Positions 56,209 to 63,928 of a stretch of 64,000 nucleotides of DNA are shown here, piece after piece. The stretch lies in the NCBI RefSeq assembly GCF_019024325.1, contig NZ_JAFNJS010000005.1, positions 372,001 through 436,000 on the forward strand. The letters are read 5' to 3'. The notes under the pieces are model-generated. The model saw nothing but the letters and a program-made list of their open reading frames with translations, was not told the origin of the DNA and did not search any database. The DNA comes from Falsiroseomonas tokyonensis (GTDB taxonomy: Bacteria > Pseudomonadota > Alphaproteobacteria > Acetobacterales > Acetobacteraceae). The translations under genes and the position numbers were made by a program. Position 1 is the stretch's first letter; each line of letters opens with the position of its first letter.

Positions 56209-57182
56209 CACTCCACCTGCACCCCGGCCAGCCGCGCCACCTCCGTCCAGCGGGCAATCTCGGGGGCGATGATGGCGCGGAATTCGGCGGGCGTGCTGAT
56301 GGTGGGCTTGATGCCGATGGCGGCGATGCGCTCGGCGAAGCCCGGCTGGGCCGCGATCTGCGCGATGGCCGAGGCCAATTCGCCGATGATGCCGGGCGGG
56401 GTGCCGGCCGGCACGACGAAGCCCAGCCAGCCGCTGGCCCGATAGCCGGTCAGCCCGACCTCGGCGAAGGTCGGCACATCCGGCAGCAGCGGGTCCCGCG
56501 TGGCGCCGGTGGTGGCCAGCGCCCGCGCCGCGCCGTCGCGCACCGGGGTCATCACCGAATTCACCGTGTTGAAGGTCATGTCCACCTGGCCGCCCAGCAT
56601 ATCCGTCACCGCCTGGGGGCTGCCGCGATAGGGCACGTGCAGGATGTCCACGCCGGCCATCTGCTTGAAGAACTCGGCCGCCATATGGGTGGAGGTGCCG
56701 GTGCCGGCGGAGGAATAGCTGAGCTGCCCCGGCCGCGCCTTGGCCGCCGCGATCACCTCCGCCACGCTGCGGAAGGGCGAGGCCGTGCGCACCACCAGCG
56801 CCGCGTCATTGGCGCCGACCAGCGCCACCGGATCGAAGCCGCCGACGGGGTCATAGGGCAGGTTGGCGCGGATGGCGGGGTTGATGGCCAGCACCGAGGA
56901 ATTGGCCATCAGGATGGTATAGCCATCGGCCGGCGAACGCGCCGCGGCTTCGGTGCCGATCATGCCGCTGGCGCCGGCGCGGTTCTCGATCACCACCGGC
57001 TGGCCCAGCAGCTCCGTCAGCTTCTGGCCATAGGCGCGGGCCAGCAGGTCGGTGCCGGCGCCGGGCGGGTAGGGCACGATGATCCTGATCGCCCGGCTGG
57101 GCCAGGCGGGCGTCTGCGCGAAAGCGAAGCCTGGGGCGAGGACGGCCAGGGCGAGCAGGCTGCGGCGGGGAAGCTGGGGCAT
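56208..57182 (-). CDS. Bug/TctC-type tripartite tricarboxylate binding protein
   Basis: The 324-residue periplasmic protein has a signal peptide (MPQLPRRSLLALAVLAPG, cleavage near AFA-Q). It has the family block RIIVPYPPGAGTDLLAR and VENRAGASGMIGTEA. It would bind a carboxylate. No TctA/TctB membrane partners are in the window. GAGGGA seven bases before the ATG supports this start. Confidence 0.93.
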   Translation of the reverse strand: MPQLPRRSLLALAVLAPGFAFAQTPAWPSRAIRIIVPYPPGAGTDLLARAYGQKLTELLGQPVVIENRAGASGMIGTEAAARSPADGYTILMANSSVLAINPAIRANLPYDPVGGFDPVALVGANDAALVVRTASPFRSVAEVIAAAKARPGQLSYSSAGTGTSTHMAAEFFKQMAGVDILHVPYRGSPQAVTDMLGGQVDMTFNTVNSVMTPVRDGAARALATTGATRDPLLPDVPTFAEVGLTGYRASGWLGFVVPAGTPPGIIGELASAIAQIAAQPGFAERIAAIGIKPTISTPAEFRAIIAPEIARWTEVARLAGVQVE

Positions 57183-57285: not shown

Positions 57286-58260
57286 TCAGCTGGGCTCCAC
57301 CCCCGCCGCGCGCACCACCGGCGCCCAGCGCGTGGCTTCGGCGGCGACGAAGGCGCCGATGCGCTCCGGGCTGAGATCACCGAGCGAGACCACGCCGACA
57401 CTCTCCAGCCGCGCCTTGATCGCGGCGTCCGCCAGGCCTGCCTGCAATTCGGTGTTCAGCCGCGCCGCGATGGCCGGGTCCAGCCCGGCGGGGGCGGCCA
57501 TGACGAACCAGTTGGTGGAGACCGATCCCGGGAACCCCGCCTGCACCAGCGTCGGCACCGCCGGCAGGGCGGAGACACGTTCGGGCGAGGAAACGGCCAG
57601 CGCCTTCAGCGTGCCCGCCCGGATCGCCGCCGCATTGGCGCCGGAAGTATCCCAGAGCGAGGTGGTATTGCCGCCGAGCACATTCTGCTGCGCCTCAGCC
57701 GCGCCGCGGAAGGGCACGTGCAGCATCCGCACCCCGGCCTCCATCCCCCACATCACCCCGGTCAGATGCCCGACGGAGCCGACGCCGGAGGAGCCGAAGG
57801 AGACGGCCTCCGGCGCGCGGGCGGCCATGGCCTTGTAGTCGGCCAGCGTCGCCATCGGGCTGTCGCCCTTCACCGCGCAGACGATGGGCGCGCCGCCGAG
57901 CATGCTGATCCAGGAAAAGGCACGGTTCGGGTCATAGGCCAGGCTGCGGAACAGGGAGGGCGCGACGGCCAGCGGCCCGGTATTGGAAACCAGCAGCGTA
58001 TGGCCATCCGCCACCGCCCGCGCCGCCTCCGCCGTCGCCACCGTGCCGCCGGCGCCGGGCTTGTTCTCCACCACGAAGGGCCGGCCGAAGGCGCGTTCCA
58101 GCCGGTCCGTCAGGGGGCGGATGATCAGGTCGCTGGTGCCGCCGGGGGCATAGGGGTTGAGGATGCGGACCGGGCGATTGGGCCATGGCGCCTGCGCCAG
58201 GGCGGGCGCGGCGAGGGGGGCCATCAGGGCGGTGGCGAGGATCTGGCGGCGGGTCGTCAT
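57286..58260 (-). CDS. Bug/TctC-type tripartite tricarboxylate binding protein
   Basis: A second 324-residue Bug protein has a signal peptide (MTTRRQILATALMAPLAAP, cleavage near ALA-Q), then RILNPYAPGGTSDLIIRP and VENKPGAGGTVATAE. It is a separate member rather than a recent duplicate, since the two sequences differ widely. GGAGAGACAGG precedes the ATG. It follows the GumN-like gene by 52 bases. Confidence 0.93.
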   Translation of the reverse strand: MTTRRQILATALMAPLAAPALAQAPWPNRPVRILNPYAPGGTSDLIIRPLTDRLERAFGRPFVVENKPGAGGTVATAEAARAVADGHTLLVSNTGPLAVAPSLFRSLAYDPNRAFSWISMLGGAPIVCAVKGDSPMATLADYKAMAARAPEAVSFGSSGVGSVGHLTGVMWGMEAGVRMLHVPFRGAAEAQQNVLGGNTTSLWDTSGANAAAIRAGTLKALAVSSPERVSALPAVPTLVQAGFPGSVSTNWFVMAAPAGLDPAIAARLNTELQAGLADAAIKARLESVGVVSLGDLSPERIGAFVAAEATRWAPVVRAAGVEPS

Positions 58261-59214: not shown

Positions 59215-59946
59215 TCAAGGCGCGGCGTAGAGCGCGGCGATCTCGCCCGCGAAACCGGTCAGCGCGCGGTCGCGCTTCGGGCGCGGCGCGCCGGGCGGGG
59301 CCAGGCCCACCAGCGCCTCCGCCATCCGCACCGCGGCCGCCGTGCCGTCCACCAGCGGCACCGGCACGCGATCGGCGATGACGGGGGCGAGGCCCGCCAG
59401 CGGCCCGCCAGCCAGGATCACCGCCTCCGCCCCATCCTGTTCCACCGATTGCCGGCAGAGATCCACAAGCAGCTCCGCGCGCTGTTCCGCCACCAGGCCG
59501 GGGTCGCCGGCGAAGGCGGGGCCCATGCGGAAGCCGGCGCAGCGCGCGGCAAGGCCGTGATGCGCCAGGCAATCCTCGAACATCGGGCGCAGCGCCGCGG
59601 TGAAGGACACCACGCCGAAGCGCCGGCCGAGCATGGAGGCCGCATGGAAGGCGGCCTCGCTGATGCCGAGCACCGGCACGTCCAAAAGCTCCTTCGCCGC
59701 ATCGAGGCCCGGATCGCCGAAACAGGCGATCACCGCCGCATCATACTGGCCGCGCCGTGCGGCCAGCGCCGCCAGCGTGGCGGGGCCTGCCACCAGCCAA
59801 TCCGCGCGGCTGACGATCAGCGGCAGGCCGAAGGGGGCGGAGACCGTCTGCACCGCCGTCCCCGGCGAAGCCGCGGCCTTGGCTGCCAGGTCGATGCGGG
59901 CGGTAACGCTCTCCGTCGTATTGCTGTTGACCACCAGCAGTCTCAC
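59215..59946 (-). CDS. Asp/Glu/hydantoin racemase family protein (HyuE/HpxA-like)
   Basis: The family includes hydantoin and allantoin racemases, which use two cysteines. The 243-residue protein begins with RLLVVNSNTTESVT and keeps the first cysteine at Cys75 (VIACFGDPG). In the second active-site strand (VILAGGPLAG, residues ~177-185) the family cysteine appears as Gly180. It may be a non-racemising lyase or a changed enzyme. The start is GTG at 59946, overlapping the allantoinase-like stop (GTGA). Confidence 0.83.
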   Translation of the reverse strand: MRLLVVNSNTTESVTARIDLAAKAAASPGTAVQTVSAPFGLPLIVSRADWLVAGPATLAALAARRGQYDAAVIACFGDPGLDAAKELLDVPVLGISEAAFHAASMLGRRFGVVSFTAALRPMFEDCLAHHGLAARCAGFRMGPAFAGDPGLVAEQRAELLVDLCRQSVEQDGAEAVILAGGPLAGLAPVIADRVPVPLVDGTAAAVRMAEALVGLAPPGAPRPKRDRALTGFAGEIAALYAAP

Positions 59947-60860
59947 GGCGGCATCTCCTGCGTCAGCCAATGCCGCGCGATGTCACAGCGCCGCGCTACC
60001 CAGATATCCTCCCGCCCCGCCACATGCCGCAGCACCGCCGCCAGCCCCGGCATGCGCGCCGGCCTTCCGATGATGCGGAGGTGCAGCCCGATGGACAGCA
60101 TGCGCGGCCCGCCTTCCGCCAGCAGCCAGTCGATGGCGGCGATGCAGTATCGGGAGAAGTCCTCGTGGTGGACAAAGCCGCCGCCGGGGGCGAAGCGCAT
60201 GTCATTGGTGTCGAAGGCATAGGGCAGGCGCACATGCGTCGCGCTGTGCAGCCGCGGCAGGTCCTCGTCGTAATTGTCGCTGTCGTAGAGGAAGCCGCCT
60301 TCCTCCAGCAGCAGCCGCCGCGTGTTGACGGAAGACGCGCTGCGCGTGTGCCAGCCGACGGGCCTTTCGCCGGTGGCCTCGCGGATGGCGCCGACCGTCG
60401 CGGCGATCACCGCGCGTTCGGTGTCCTCCGCCATGCCGGCATGGCTTTCCCAGCGCCAGCCATGCGCCGAGACCTCGTGCCCCCGCGCATGCGGCGCCGC
60501 GGCCAGGATCGGCGTGGCGGCAATGGCGCGCCCGCAGCTCGAAAACGTGGCCTTCACCCCATGTGCATCGAAGGAATCCAGGATCCGCCACAGCCCGATG
60601 CGGCTGCCGTACCCAAAATGGCTTTCCATGCAGGGGTCGGGGTGGCCCACCACCTCCTCCCGCGCCTCATAGGTGGCCTCGTTGCGGGCATCGCCGGAGG
60701 TCAGCGACATCTCCGCCCCTTCCTCCACATTCACCACGAAGGACAGCGCGAGCTTCGCCCCGCCCGGCCAGCGGGCGGAGGAGGCCGCGCCGGCGCGGCC
60801 GGCGAGGTCCCGCGATGCGGGCGGCATGCCCCCAGGCAGGCCGGCAGGCAGCACGCTCAT
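59943..60860 (-). CDS. puuE: PuuE-type allantoinase / polysaccharide-deacetylase-fold hydrolase
   Basis: PuuE hydrolyses allantoin to allantoate. The 305-residue protein matches the family: LSFVVNVEEGAE, YGSRIGLWRILD, GHEVSAHGWRWESH, NTRRLLLEEGGFLYDSD, FDTNDMRFA, and LSIGLHLRIIGRPARM. Some PuuE proteins are fused to OHCU decarboxylase, but this one is not. It is coupled to the HIU-hydrolase-like gene upstream by ATGA and to the racemase-like gene downstream by GTGA. Activity on a related cyclic ureide rather than allantoin is possible. Confidence 0.88.
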   Translation of the reverse strand: MSVLPAGLPGGMPPASRDLAGRAGAASSARWPGGAKLALSFVVNVEEGAEMSLTSGDARNEATYEAREEVVGHPDPCMESHFGYGSRIGLWRILDSFDAHGVKATFSSCGRAIAATPILAAAPHARGHEVSAHGWRWESHAGMAEDTERAVIAATVGAIREATGERPVGWHTRSASSVNTRRLLLEEGGFLYDSDNYDEDLPRLHSATHVRLPYAFDTNDMRFAPGGGFVHHEDFSRYCIAAIDWLLAEGGPRMLSIGLHLRIIGRPARMPGLAAVLRHVAGREDIWVARRCDIARHWLTQEMPP

Positions 60861-61210
60861 GCCCCGCGATACAGTGAGAAGCCCCAGGGGGTGAATTTGA
60901 TCGGCAGGTGGTAGTGCAGCGTCGCGTCAAAAACCCGGAAGCGGAAGGGCACCAGCTCCAGGAAGGGCGGCGGCGGGCTGGCGGATTCGGCGAAGAAGGC
61001 GCCGATATGGAACAGCACCTCATGCACGCCTTCCTGCACGCCCTGGCCTTGCGTGACCGGGTGGTGCAGCGCGCCATCGGCGCCAAGCCGGCCCTCCGCC
61101 ACCGCAAGCCTCTCGCCATCCTCCAGGATCCGATGGATCTCCACCTTCATGCCCAGCCCCGGCCGGCCGCTGGCCACATCCACCGCATGCACTGAAATCC
61201 CACCCGGCAT
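60857..61210 (-). CDS. 5-hydroxyisourate hydrolase-like (transthyretin-fold) protein
   Basis: HIU hydrolase opens 5-hydroxyisourate after uricase action. The 117-residue protein has the right length and outline: GGISVHAVDVASGRPG with His8, HYHLP with His99/His101, and a C-terminal YRGA. Two family landmarks deviate. The DGR whose arginine is catalytic reads DGA (Ala47), and the YRGS tail ends in Ala. It may be an altered hydrolase or a non-catalytic relative. The ATG at 61210 overlaps the upstream stop as TGATG. Confidence 0.83.
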   Translation of the reverse strand: MPGGISVHAVDVASGRPGLGMKVEIHRILEDGERLAVAEGRLGADGALHHPVTQGQGVQEGVHEVLFHIGAFFAESASPPPPFLELVPFRFRVFDATLHYHLPIKFTPWGFSLYRGA

Positions 61211-61965
61211 CACGCGATTCCCCCCGGGGCCAGGGTAAACAGCCCCCCCCATGCCGGGCCAGGGCTTTCCGGAATGCCCGCCGCTCCAAGCCCGCCCCAG
61301 ACGCCGAGCGCCGTCGCATCCAGCAGCGGGATGCCCGTCTCGGCCTCCAGCGCCGCGGCCAGCGGGGCGGCGGCGCAATTGGTGTTCCAGAGGATGATGG
61401 CCTGCACCCCCGGCCGCGCGACCTGTCGCGCCAGCCCGGCCACCGCGTCATAGCCCACGGAGGCGAAGGCGAGATTGTCCAGGATGCCGAGGCTGGCCTC
61501 CGCCACCATCTCCACCCCTTCCGCCGCCAGGCCGCGCGCGGCGCGGTGGTTGTACTCCGCCGCATGCGGCCCGATCAGCGCGACGCGGCGCGCCCCCAGC
61601 AGGGCCAGGGCCTCCAGCAAGGCGAGGCCGCTGGTGGCGCAGGGCAGGCCGGTTTCCGCGCGCACCCGCTGCACCAGGGCGCGGTCGTGCTGCAGCCCGA
61701 TGACGGCGCCCTTGCTGGCGGACCAGATGATGGCATCGGGCTTCGCATCGGCCAGCAATTCGGCCGCCTGCATCATCGCCTCCCAGTCATAGCCATCCGG
61801 GAAGGGGTCAACCGAGCCGCGCTTCGCGACGCGGGTGAAGATCGGCAGCACGCCCGGCATGCCGTGCAGCAACGCCCTTGTGGTGCGCTCCACCACCGTA
61901 TTGGCGGAGGGCAGGATGGTGGCCAGCAGGCGCGGGGCCTCGGGCATCAAGGTCATCGGATCCAT
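61210..61965 (-). CDS. Maleate isomerase/arylmalonate decarboxylase-like protein
   Basis: The 251-residue protein has the family start ILPSANTVVERTT, the middle block CATSGLALLEALALLGARRVALIGP, and LLDATALGVW near the end. The two active-site cysteines are not in their usual places: the first strand reads IIWSASKGA and the second ILWNTNC. The substrate is unknown. It is the first gene of the minus train, divergent from a Bug-type gene with a 71-base spacer. Starts at 61965 and 61956 are possible. Confidence 0.78.
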   Translation of the reverse strand: MDPMTLMPEAPRLLATILPSANTVVERTTRALLHGMPGVLPIFTRVAKRGSVDPFPDGYDWEAMMQAAELLADAKPDAIIWSASKGAVIGLQHDRALVQRVRAETGLPCATSGLALLEALALLGARRVALIGPHAAEYNHRAARGLAAEGVEMVAEASLGILDNLAFASVGYDAVAGLARQVARPGVQAIILWNTNCAAAPLAAALEAETGIPLLDATALGVWGGLGAAGIPESPGPAWGGLFTLAPGGIA

Positions 61966-62036: not shown

Positions 62037-63014
62037 ATGCGCCGCCGCCATCTGCCCGTTCTCGCGGCATTCGCCGCCCTTGCCACCGGCACCGGGCTGC
62101 GCGCCCAACCCGCCTGGCCGGCGCGGCCGATCCGCATCATCGTCACCTTTCCGCCCGGCGGATCCTCCGACATCGTGGCGCGCGTGCTGGCGGAGGTGCT
62201 GTCCCAGCGCCTGCCGCAGCGTGTGCTGGTGGAGAACCGGCCCGGCGCCGGCGGCACGCTGGGCGCGGCCTATGTCGCGACGCAGCCGGCAGATGGCTAC
62301 ACGCTGCTGCTGTCCAATACCGCGCCCATCGTCACCTCGCCCCCGATCTACGCCAATGTGCCCTACGACCCCGTCACGGGCTTCACCCACATCGCCTACC
62401 TCGGCGCGACGCCGCTGGTGATCATGGTGAACCCGCGGCTGGTGCCGGCCACCGACCTCGCGGGCCTGGTCGCCTGGATCAAGGCGCAGGCCACGCCGCC
62501 GGGCTTCGGCAGCTCCGGCGCCGGCTCCGTCGCGCATATCTTCGGCGAAGCCTTCACCCAGCGCACCGGGGCGCAGCTGACGCATGTGCCCTATCGGGGC
62601 AGCGCGCCGATGCAGGCGGATCTGCTGGGCGGGGCCATTCCGCTGGCCTTCGACACGCTGCCGCAGAATGTCGAGAACATCCGCGCCGGCCGGCTGCGCG
62701 CCATCGCCATCACCGCTCCCGCGCGGCAGGAGATGGCGCCGGAGGTGCCGACCACGGCGGAGGGCGGATTCCCCGGCCTGGTCGCCGAGAACTGGCTGGG
62801 CCTGGCCGGCCCGCCCGGCCTGCCCGCGCCCGTCGTCGCCACGCTGCACCGGGAAGTGGCGGCGGCGCTGGAAAACCCGCTGATGAAAAGCCGCATCCTG
62901 GAACACGGCATCGCGGTGCGGCCGATGACCCAGCCGGAATTCACCACCTATGTGGCGGAGGAGGTGCGCGTGGTCGGCGGCGCGGTGAAGGCGCTGGGCC
63001 TGACCGCGCAATGA
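62037..63014 (+). CDS. Bug/TctC-type tripartite tricarboxylate binding protein
   Basis: The third Bug protein (325 residues) has a signal peptide (MRRRHLPVLAAFAALATG, cleavage near LRA-Q), RIIVTFPPGGSSDIVAR and VENRPGAGGTLGAAYVA. GGAG lies about nine bases before the ATG. It is divergent from the ureide-type operon and overlaps the next gene (ATGA), so it probably supplies a substrate for that operon. Confidence 0.93.
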   Translation: MRRRHLPVLAAFAALATGTGLRAQPAWPARPIRIIVTFPPGGSSDIVARVLAEVLSQRLPQRVLVENRPGAGGTLGAAYVATQPADGYTLLLSNTAPIVTSPPIYANVPYDPVTGFTHIAYLGATPLVIMVNPRLVPATDLAGLVAWIKAQATPPGFGSSGAGSVAHIFGEAFTQRTGAQLTHVPYRGSAPMQADLLGGAIPLAFDTLPQNVENIRAGRLRAIAITAPARQEMAPEVPTTAEGGFPGLVAENWLGLAGPPGLPAPVVATLHREVAAALENPLMKSRILEHGIAVRPMTQPEFTTYVAEEVRVVGGAVKALGLTAQ

Positions 63015-63928
63015 GCAGCCTGCCCCGCGTGGTCGCCGTGCTCTTCGGGCGGCCGGGGAGGGACCCGCTGGAGATCGGCGCCTTCAACGCGGCGGGCCTG
63101 CAGGGCCTGGCGCGCGCCGCCGACCTGCCCGCGCGGATCGAAACGGTGTGGGAGCCGAACCCGGCCCGCCGCACCGCCACCATCGAGGCCGCGGCGGCAA
63201 GGGCGGAGCTGGTGGTGGCGCATGGCGGGCAGGGGGAGCAGGCGGTGGCCGAGGTGGCGCCCGCCTTCCCCGATGTCGCCTTCGCCGTCACCCAGGGCCG
63301 CATCACCGGCCCCAACATTGCGGGCTTCGAGGTGCTGCAGGAGCAATCCGCCTTACTGGCCGGCGCGCTGGCCGGCTGGTGGATCGCGCCCGGCGACACC
63401 GCCGCGCATCTGTCCGGAGAGCCGGTGCCGCCCGGGCTGCGCGGCCGCGCCGGCTTCGCCGCGGGCCTCGCCCATGCCAACCCCTCCGCACGCCTGCTGA
63501 GCGGCTTCTGCGGCAATCAGCACGACCCGGACCTGGCAGCGCGCTGGATCGCGGCCCAGGCGGCGGCGGGGGCCCGCGTGAACTTCGCCATGCTGGATGG
63601 CGGCCGCGCGGGGGCGATCGCGGCCTGCAAGGCGGCGGGGATGCGCGCCATCGGCAATGTGCGCGACTGGACGGCGGAGGATGCGGTCTTCCTCGCCTCT
63701 GCCATCGCCGACAATGGCGTGGCGATGCAGGCCGCCATCACCGCCTTCCTGTCCGGCGATTTCGCCGATCGCCGCATCGGGCTGGAGGCGCCGGAGGCAG
63801 TGCGCCTGGCGCTGGCCGCCGATGTGCCGCCGGCACTCGCCGCGCGGCTGGATCAGCTGCGCGAGGCGATCCTGCAGGGCGCGCTTACGGTGCCGGAGGC
63901 GTGGGCGGGGGCGGAGTGGGCGCCATAG
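63011..63928 (+). CDS. BMP/PnrA-like binding protein without a signal peptide
   Basis: Family members bind purine nucleosides outside the membrane for ABC uptake. The 305-residue protein has the BMP pattern (FNAAGLQGLARAA, VVAHGGQGEQAVAEVA, FAVTQG, LAGALAGWWI). It starts MSSLPRVVAVLFG with no signal peptide or lipobox. It is coupled by ATGA to the Bug gene. It may be a cytoplasmic ligand sensor rather than a transport protein, or export may depend on another route. Confidence 0.8.
   Translation: MSSLPRVVAVLFGRPGRDPLEIGAFNAAGLQGLARAADLPARIETVWEPNPARRTATIEAAAARAELVVAHGGQGEQAVAEVAPAFPDVAFAVTQGRITGPNIAGFEVLQEQSALLAGALAGWWIAPGDTAAHLSGEPVPPGLRGRAGFAAGLAHANPSARLLSGFCGNQHDPDLAARWIAAQAAAGARVNFAMLDGGRAGAIAACKAAGMRAIGNVRDWTAEDAVFLASAIADNGVAMQAAITAFLSGDFADRRIGLEAPEAVRLALAADVPPALAARLDQLREAILQGALTVPEAWAGAEWAP

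Follow-up and report, generated by a model that had tools for sequence, protein, structure and literature searches.

The enzyme fold of 5-hydroxyisourate (HIU) hydrolase is well known for its conversion into a hormone carrier, transthyretin. In the Klebsiella pneumoniae HIU hydrolase, the substitutions H7R and H92R are reported to inactivate the enzyme, R41K to carry an approximately fivefold cost and S108A to have a small effect (PMC8272043). The roles of the two cysteines in K. pneumoniae allantoin racemase (KpAllR) have also been reported (PMC12661438), as have the key residues of arylmalonate decarboxylase (AMDase), Gly74-Thr75-Ser76 and Cys188 (PMC4996985). The cyclic imide hydrolase HxnM of Aspergillus nidulans is described as resembling HpPgdA, whose closest characterised relative is PuuE (PMC9304392). 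Relatives of HIU hydrolase, allantoin racemase, PuuE allantoinase and AMDase are encoded by four overlapping genes in Falsiroseomonas tokyonensis (contig NZ_JAFNJS010000005.1, positions 372,001 to 436,000; this whole stretch of 64,000 nucleotides is called the window). The HIU-hydrolase-like protein belongs to a separate conserved clade, here termed K-type, in which the catalytic histidine pair is kept, the active-site arginine (Arg47) is lost and a lysine (Lys105) is gained. The four genes and the codons discussed below are as follows, in window coordinates:

61210..61965, minus strand: maleate-isomerase/arylmalonate-decarboxylase-like (mal-like) protein P0004, 251 aa; Pfam Amdase, 69.5 bits
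61717..61719, minus strand: Ala83 codon of the mal-like gene, first Cys site of maleate isomerase (Gly74 in AMDase), from the alignment to 2xec
61384..61386, minus strand: Asn194 codon of the mal-like gene, second Cys site, from the alignment
60857..61210, minus strand: K-type HIU-hydrolase-like protein P0003, 117 aa; Pfam Transthyretin, 83.9 bits
61070..61072, minus strand: Ala47 codon of the HIU-hydrolase-like gene, replacing the active-site Arg, from the alignment
60896..60898, minus strand: Lys105 codon of the HIU-hydrolase-like gene, clade-specific, four residues after His101, from the pooled alignments
59943..60860, minus strand: PuuE-like hydrolase of the polysaccharide-deacetylase fold P0002, 305 aa; TIGR03212, 283.8 bits
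59215..59946, minus strand: racemase-like protein P0001, 243 aa, Asp/Glu/hydantoin-racemase fold with a GGPLAGL motif; Pfam Asp_Glu_race, 175 bits
59407..59409, minus strand: Gly180 codon of the racemase-like gene, second catalytic Cys site, from the alignment to 3qvj

Families were assigned by Pfam, NCBIfam and PDB searches, residues were identified in HMMER alignments with solved structures, and codons were taken from the DNA. The open reading frames (ORFs) and these searches bear out the first-pass annotation of the window, which had recognised four coupled genes of the families named. In the order mal-like, HIU-like, PuuE-like and racemase-like, the four minus-strand ORFs overlap end to start by 1, 4 and 4 nt. 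The racemase-like gene has a GTG start at 59946, with a TTG at 59970 as a possible alternative.

The HIU-like protein shares with 5-hydroxyisourate hydrolases (UraH/PucM, TIGR02962, PF00576) the transthyretin fold, both catalytic histidines (His8 and His101, corresponding to His7 and His92 in K. pneumoniae) and the Tyr/Phe-Arg-Gly tail. The folds nearest to its predicted model (predicted local distance difference test, pLDDT, 93.5) are those of the HIU hydrolases 4q14 (template modelling score, TM, 0.90) and 8uw4 (TM 0.89). It differs from them in the replacement of the active-site Arg by Ala47, which had already been noticed by eye, in the presence of Lys105, and in its C-terminus, which reads YRGA where ordinary enzymes have YRGS, a change that had gone unmentioned; in the K-type at large, the last residue is usually Ala, Gly or Val rather than Ser. 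Its score of 79.4 bits on TIGR02962 falls under the equivalog cut-off of 87.45. A shifted but equivalent Arg was ruled out, as no Arg fills the place, and Lys105 is the candidate replacement. Lys105 and His101 lie on one predicted strand (residues 99-107), and the lysine, being four residues on, should face the same side as the histidine. The transthyretin equivalent of Lys105, Leu110, lines the hormone channel.

Across the pooled alignments, Lys105 and Arg47 never occur together: Arg47 is absent from all 90 rows with Lys105, and Lys105 from all 128 with Arg47. The window gene and some others are present more than once in these rows, and the main set holds 77 distinct K sequences. Residue 47 of the Lys105 rows is Ala in 28, Thr in 24, Leu in 14, Ser in 9, Gln in 6, Val in 5, Gly in 2, and Met and His in 1 each, while 89 of the 90 retain the first catalytic His and all retain the second. 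Three rows have neither Arg47 nor Lys105, and two of these are fragments of one broken-looking copy in Roseomonas genomospecies 6 (ATCC 49961), in which the K-type gene is matched only as two short pieces (L113:8001-8187). The third, an HIU hydrolase with His47 (L022:1495-1842), is the only full-length row with neither residue. The named-genome scan, which was run with an alignment of five close homologues and yielded 76 loci, is biased by its two seeds, one of which holds the lysine; 28 of its 73 K rows hold the Lys seed, and the other 45 lack it and were reached via the N-terminal seed. The family-wide sample was not picked on the lysine and takes in 89 of 110 places (one of them twice, the 21 lowest-scoring places being left out). 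Its 90 rows comprise 5 K-type rows (window gene included, all non-Arg), 84 with Arg and no Lys, and the His47 row of L022. Among the best 30 loci classified from a phylum-wide search of 398 genomes, 6 were K-type (own genome included) and 24 ordinary, and the K-type is present in at least 6 of the 398. In a tree of 161 dereplicated rows and 115 columns, from which columns 47, 105 and 117 had been removed and in which many inner forks are unresolved, all 55 K rows fall on one side of one branch, with a Shimodaira-Hasegawa-like approximate likelihood ratio test (SH-aLRT) value of 100. The clade spans alpha- and betaproteobacteria and cyanobacteria, and thus two phyla. No published description of this subfamily was found in the literature searched, which mostly excluded subscription journals; in public plasmid records, members carry the plain annotation “hydroxyisourate hydrolase.”

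The racemase-like protein is of the same fold family as allantoin/hydantoin racemase (KpAllR, 3qvj; 120 bits) and keeps the first catalytic cysteine as Cys75, whereas the second is replaced by Gly180 within a conserved GGPLAG motif, as the first-pass annotation had it. All 17 close homologues from other genera (65-80% identity, family-wide search) have Gly at the second site, and the first site is not conserved among them, with Cys in 9 and Val in 8, so that the group does not appear to use a Cys pair. A second-site Cys was seen in one of the 29 fetched racemase-like homologues from outside the window (L149, 40%), and one K-type locus (L054) has a racemase with both cysteines. Judged from these alignments, the racemase-like protein is a member of a conserved group distinct from allantoin racemase. 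The PuuE-like protein is of one family with PuuE allantoinase (244.6 bits to 3cl6) and had been described as the only normal-looking member of the four, which did not hold: its score on the allantoinase model TIGR03212 lies well under the cut-off of 424.6 bits, and it carries the motifs GWH[TS][RK]S and LHLR in place of the GWYTGR and LHCR of ordinary PuuE. Every one of the 19 homologues in other genera (56-78% identity) has the GWH and LHLR motifs. By motif and score, this protein too is a member of a conserved group, one distinct from allantoinase.

The mal-like protein has maleate isomerase and AMDase as its nearest folds (AlphaFold model, pLDDT 86.9) and lies far under the cut-offs of the corresponding models (EutA, 69.9 of 318 bits; AMDase, 63.1 of 225). 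Neither cysteine is in place, in agreement with the first reading by eye, as Ala83 and Asn194 stand where Nocardia maleate isomerase has its two Cys; Cys197 sits three residues past Asn194. The AMDase-like GTS and a Cys in CTN are found in many relatives outside the Falsiroseomonas group, whereas in the window protein the equivalent residues are Ala-Ser-Lys and Asn. Compared with its 11 nearest relatives outside that group (43-55% identity), the protein has, on alignment, lost a cysteine, since the second Cys is kept within CTN in 10 of them (L157 has Ser); the first is present in none, as in the AMDase layout. The WNTNC of the window protein is common to L038, L041 and L043, and Methylobacterium loci have WSTN. 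The reappearance of the missing residues in close homologues, which the first-pass annotation had taken as an argument against a new pathway, is thus seen in part for the mal-like gene, at its second cysteine.

That the operon is decaying is very improbable, and this explanation was rejected on conservation across relatives. The broken-looking copy of Roseomonas genomospecies 6 would fit it, but the frames are open, the HIU-like protein is 62-93% identical among Roseomonadaceae-type loci, and motifs are conserved: the HIU-like changes are clade-wide in two phyla, and the racemase-like glycine and the PuuE-like motifs hold in all of the close homologues counted above. The first-pass annotation, which had likewise argued against decay, named conservation of the substitutions across species as the mark of a new pathway, and because they are so conserved, a distinct function is favoured. 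Its further claim of parallel loss in strictly coupled neighbouring genes did not fare as well. Coupling stands in the window, where the frames overlap, but the four-gene arrangement varies between loci: the full mal-hiu-puuE-rac set is present in 3 of 12 further Roseomonadaceae-type loci, hiu-puuE-rac in 4, hiu-rac in 4 and hiu only in 1. In a separate genome (G011, stretch L218), puuE-rac adjoins an amidohydrolase gene, with no HIU-like match among the called genes; neighbourhood gene calling relied on simple scripts and is approximate. The operon joins the three larger proteins in some species only, and in the family-wide searches their close homologues lie mostly at separate places, each of the four proteins coming from its own side branch. 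The earlier interpretation was thus half right, in that the genes are conserved and probably functional but were assembled from independent off-type branches.

A tentative explanation, for which confidence comes close to even, is that the four genes specify conserved, off-type relatives of uricolytic enzymes, which would act in the catabolism of a cyclic ureide or imide distinct from urate. In the K-type protein, the His pair would activate water and a C-N bond of the ring would be cleaved, with Lys105, in the stead of Arg47, polarising the carbonyl. The PuuE-like protein could act on another C-N bond, cyclic or ureido, likewise by hydrolysis. The two racemase-fold proteins, as they have no Cys pair, are probably not two-base racemases and may carry out a one-base or no-thiol step, for example tautomerisation, decarboxylation or lyase chemistry. 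A different ring-opening chemistry, as first proposed, is no more than a possibility: with both histidines kept and the lysine on the same strand, acid/base hydrolysis of the ordinary kind, whether on the same substrate or a different one, fits equally well. A partial parallel is found in A. nidulans, where the imidase HxnM, a distant PuuE relative, opens a ring and the amide hydrolase HxnN follows (PMC9304392). Theirs is a fungal nicotinate pathway, whereas here an amidase adjoins the K-type genes of other bacteria and not the window locus.

The neighbourhoods of 77 K-type loci were compared, 12 of the Roseomonadaceae type and 65 others, with near-identical strains and short contigs included. 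A homologue of the binding protein of one ATP-binding cassette (ABC) importer is present in 48 of the 77 (46-100% identity to the references) and an amidase-signature (AS) amidase in 40, and both are matched exclusively outside the Roseomonadaceae group (48/65 and 40/65, against 0/12 for either), where mal-like and racemase-like genes are found in 21/65 and 12/65. Among all 77, the further neighbours are an ATPase (45), mal-like (24) and racemase-like (23) proteins, a major facilitator superfamily (MFS) transporter (20), Bug (17), M20 (15) and BMP-like (14) proteins and D-hydantoinase (8), although the ATPase, amidase, MFS and weak racemase matches may be general family matches. In two Azospirillum plasmid records, the K-type gene follows genes for an amidase and an MFS transporter, in that order, and precedes those for two ABC permeases, the binding protein and the ATPase. 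Among solved structures, the importer's binding protein has distant relatives only, including polyamine-, pyridoxal-phosphate- and iron-binding proteins. The usual neighbours of the K-type gene outside the Roseomonadaceae, this importer and an amidase, make it probable that the enzyme acts on a stable ring compound taken up from outside and would release an open-chain amide or ureido acid. It is quite possible, if somewhat short of an even prospect, that this transthyretin-fold subfamily, whose active-site cation would sit at Lys105 and no longer at Arg47, performs ring opening in an undescribed pathway that couples import to the breakdown of a cyclic ureide or imide. In alpha- and betaproteobacteria and cyanobacteria, it would act alongside PuuE-like hydrolases, amidases and racemase-fold enzymes poor in Cys. 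Such a second enzyme branch, with its charge at a new position, would be another functional exit from the same pocket, and annotations of HIU hydrolase, PuuE and racemase side by side need not mean urate catabolism. The candidate pathway is testable, since the binding protein of the conserved importer could reveal the substrate. Methylurate, from the C-8 oxidation of caffeine (tmuH/tmuD; reviewed in PMC4408171), may also be a candidate substrate.

A doubtful alternative is that the K-type protein is an isoenzyme of HIU hydrolase, its positive charge now carried by Lys105 and not by Arg47, and that the operon is a spare or conditional uricolytic operon. Its fold and His pair are those of an HIU hydrolase, R41K is reportedly tolerated in the K. 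pneumoniae enzyme (PMC8272043), and the HIU-like, PuuE-like and racemase-like genes parallel the hydrolase, allantoinase and racemase steps. UraD (PF09349) has no match in the own genome, though PuuD, UraH and PuuE are present, and racemic allantoin might therefore arise. However, the genome is already equipped elsewhere with an ordinary UraH adjoining a PuuD-type urate oxidase and with another PuuE that passes the equivalog cut-off (434.9 bits; 14 matches to the PuuE model in all, some of them weak). The racemase-like protein is also without the Cys pair of allantoin racemase, and an importer and an amidase are what most often adjoins K-type genes outside the Roseomonadaceae. A second, weaker PuuE-like match adjoins a second racemase-like match outside the window in this genome (G000:C45:187661-189156).

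Several observations nonetheless weigh against a pathway for a ring compound other than urate. UraD is matched in 21 of the 77 K-type loci and adjoins the K-type gene in two (L088 and L116), with its HP and SxxEQ motifs kept, which hold the catalytic His and Glu; in a third (L117), it lies 2.4 kb away and the stretch has, at its edge, the start of a gene annotated as PuuD. Of 79 K-bearing loci, 18 by script count have both HIU types within the stretch fetched, or 17 without L089, whose second copy is a divergent outlier (27%); coexistence of the two types, seen also in the own genome, speaks for a separate K-type role as well. PuuE is matched in 14 of the 65 loci outside the Roseomonadaceae. 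The reach of Lys105 into the active-site pocket is a prediction from strand parity and transthyretin geometry. The neighbour counts describe K-type loci alone, with no comparison set from ordinary HIU hydrolases. The complete set of four genes is found in just 4 of the 13 Roseomonadaceae-type loci, window counted, and the window locus is without the importer and amidase and has Bug and BMP-like binding proteins instead. The PuuD threshold was reached in none of the 77 K-type loci, in which other urate oxidases and xanthine dehydrogenase were not searched for.

The genes that flank the operon in the window are as follows:

62037..63014, plus strand: Bug/TTT-type solute-binding protein, divergent from the operon (ORF; family by eye)
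63011..63928, plus strand: BMP-family-like protein (ORF; BMP-type model, 56.7 bits, cut-off 400)
57298..58185, minus strand: Bug-like solute-binding protein downstream of the racemase-like gene, matched stretch (tblastn, own-genome stretch L231, 38% identity)
56256..57158, minus strand: second Bug-like solute-binding protein, matched stretch (tblastn, own-genome stretch L231, 39% identity)

A homologue of the divergent Bug gene, 70-89% identical, lies directly upstream in all 12 further Roseomonadaceae-type loci. The BMP-like protein has no evident signal peptide (by eye) and only weak PDB matches, which are to solute-binding lipoproteins; 10 of its 14 K-type loci fall within the 12 of the Roseomonadaceae type, where it is a fragment in L046 and was not seen in L047. 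These relatives of binding proteins, together with the loss of catalytic residues in both racemase-fold proteins, would suit non-catalytic proteins retained as binding or regulatory subunits. Such a role is improbable, as the near-universal retention of the HIU-like His pair goes beyond what mere binding predicts, and the preferred explanation remains an enzymatic one, the catabolism of a cyclic ureide or imide.

BMP-like homologues also adjoin the K-type genes of Burkholderiales (L093, L098 and L102). Just past the end of the window (L230:986-2942), the BMP-like gene is followed by a small MscL-looking gene (by eye) and an M20 deacylase gene, whose product is 87% identical to the L039 copy; an M20 gene recurs in related loci. 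After the M20 gene in L230 comes what appears, by eye, to be an oligopeptide-type ABC transporter.

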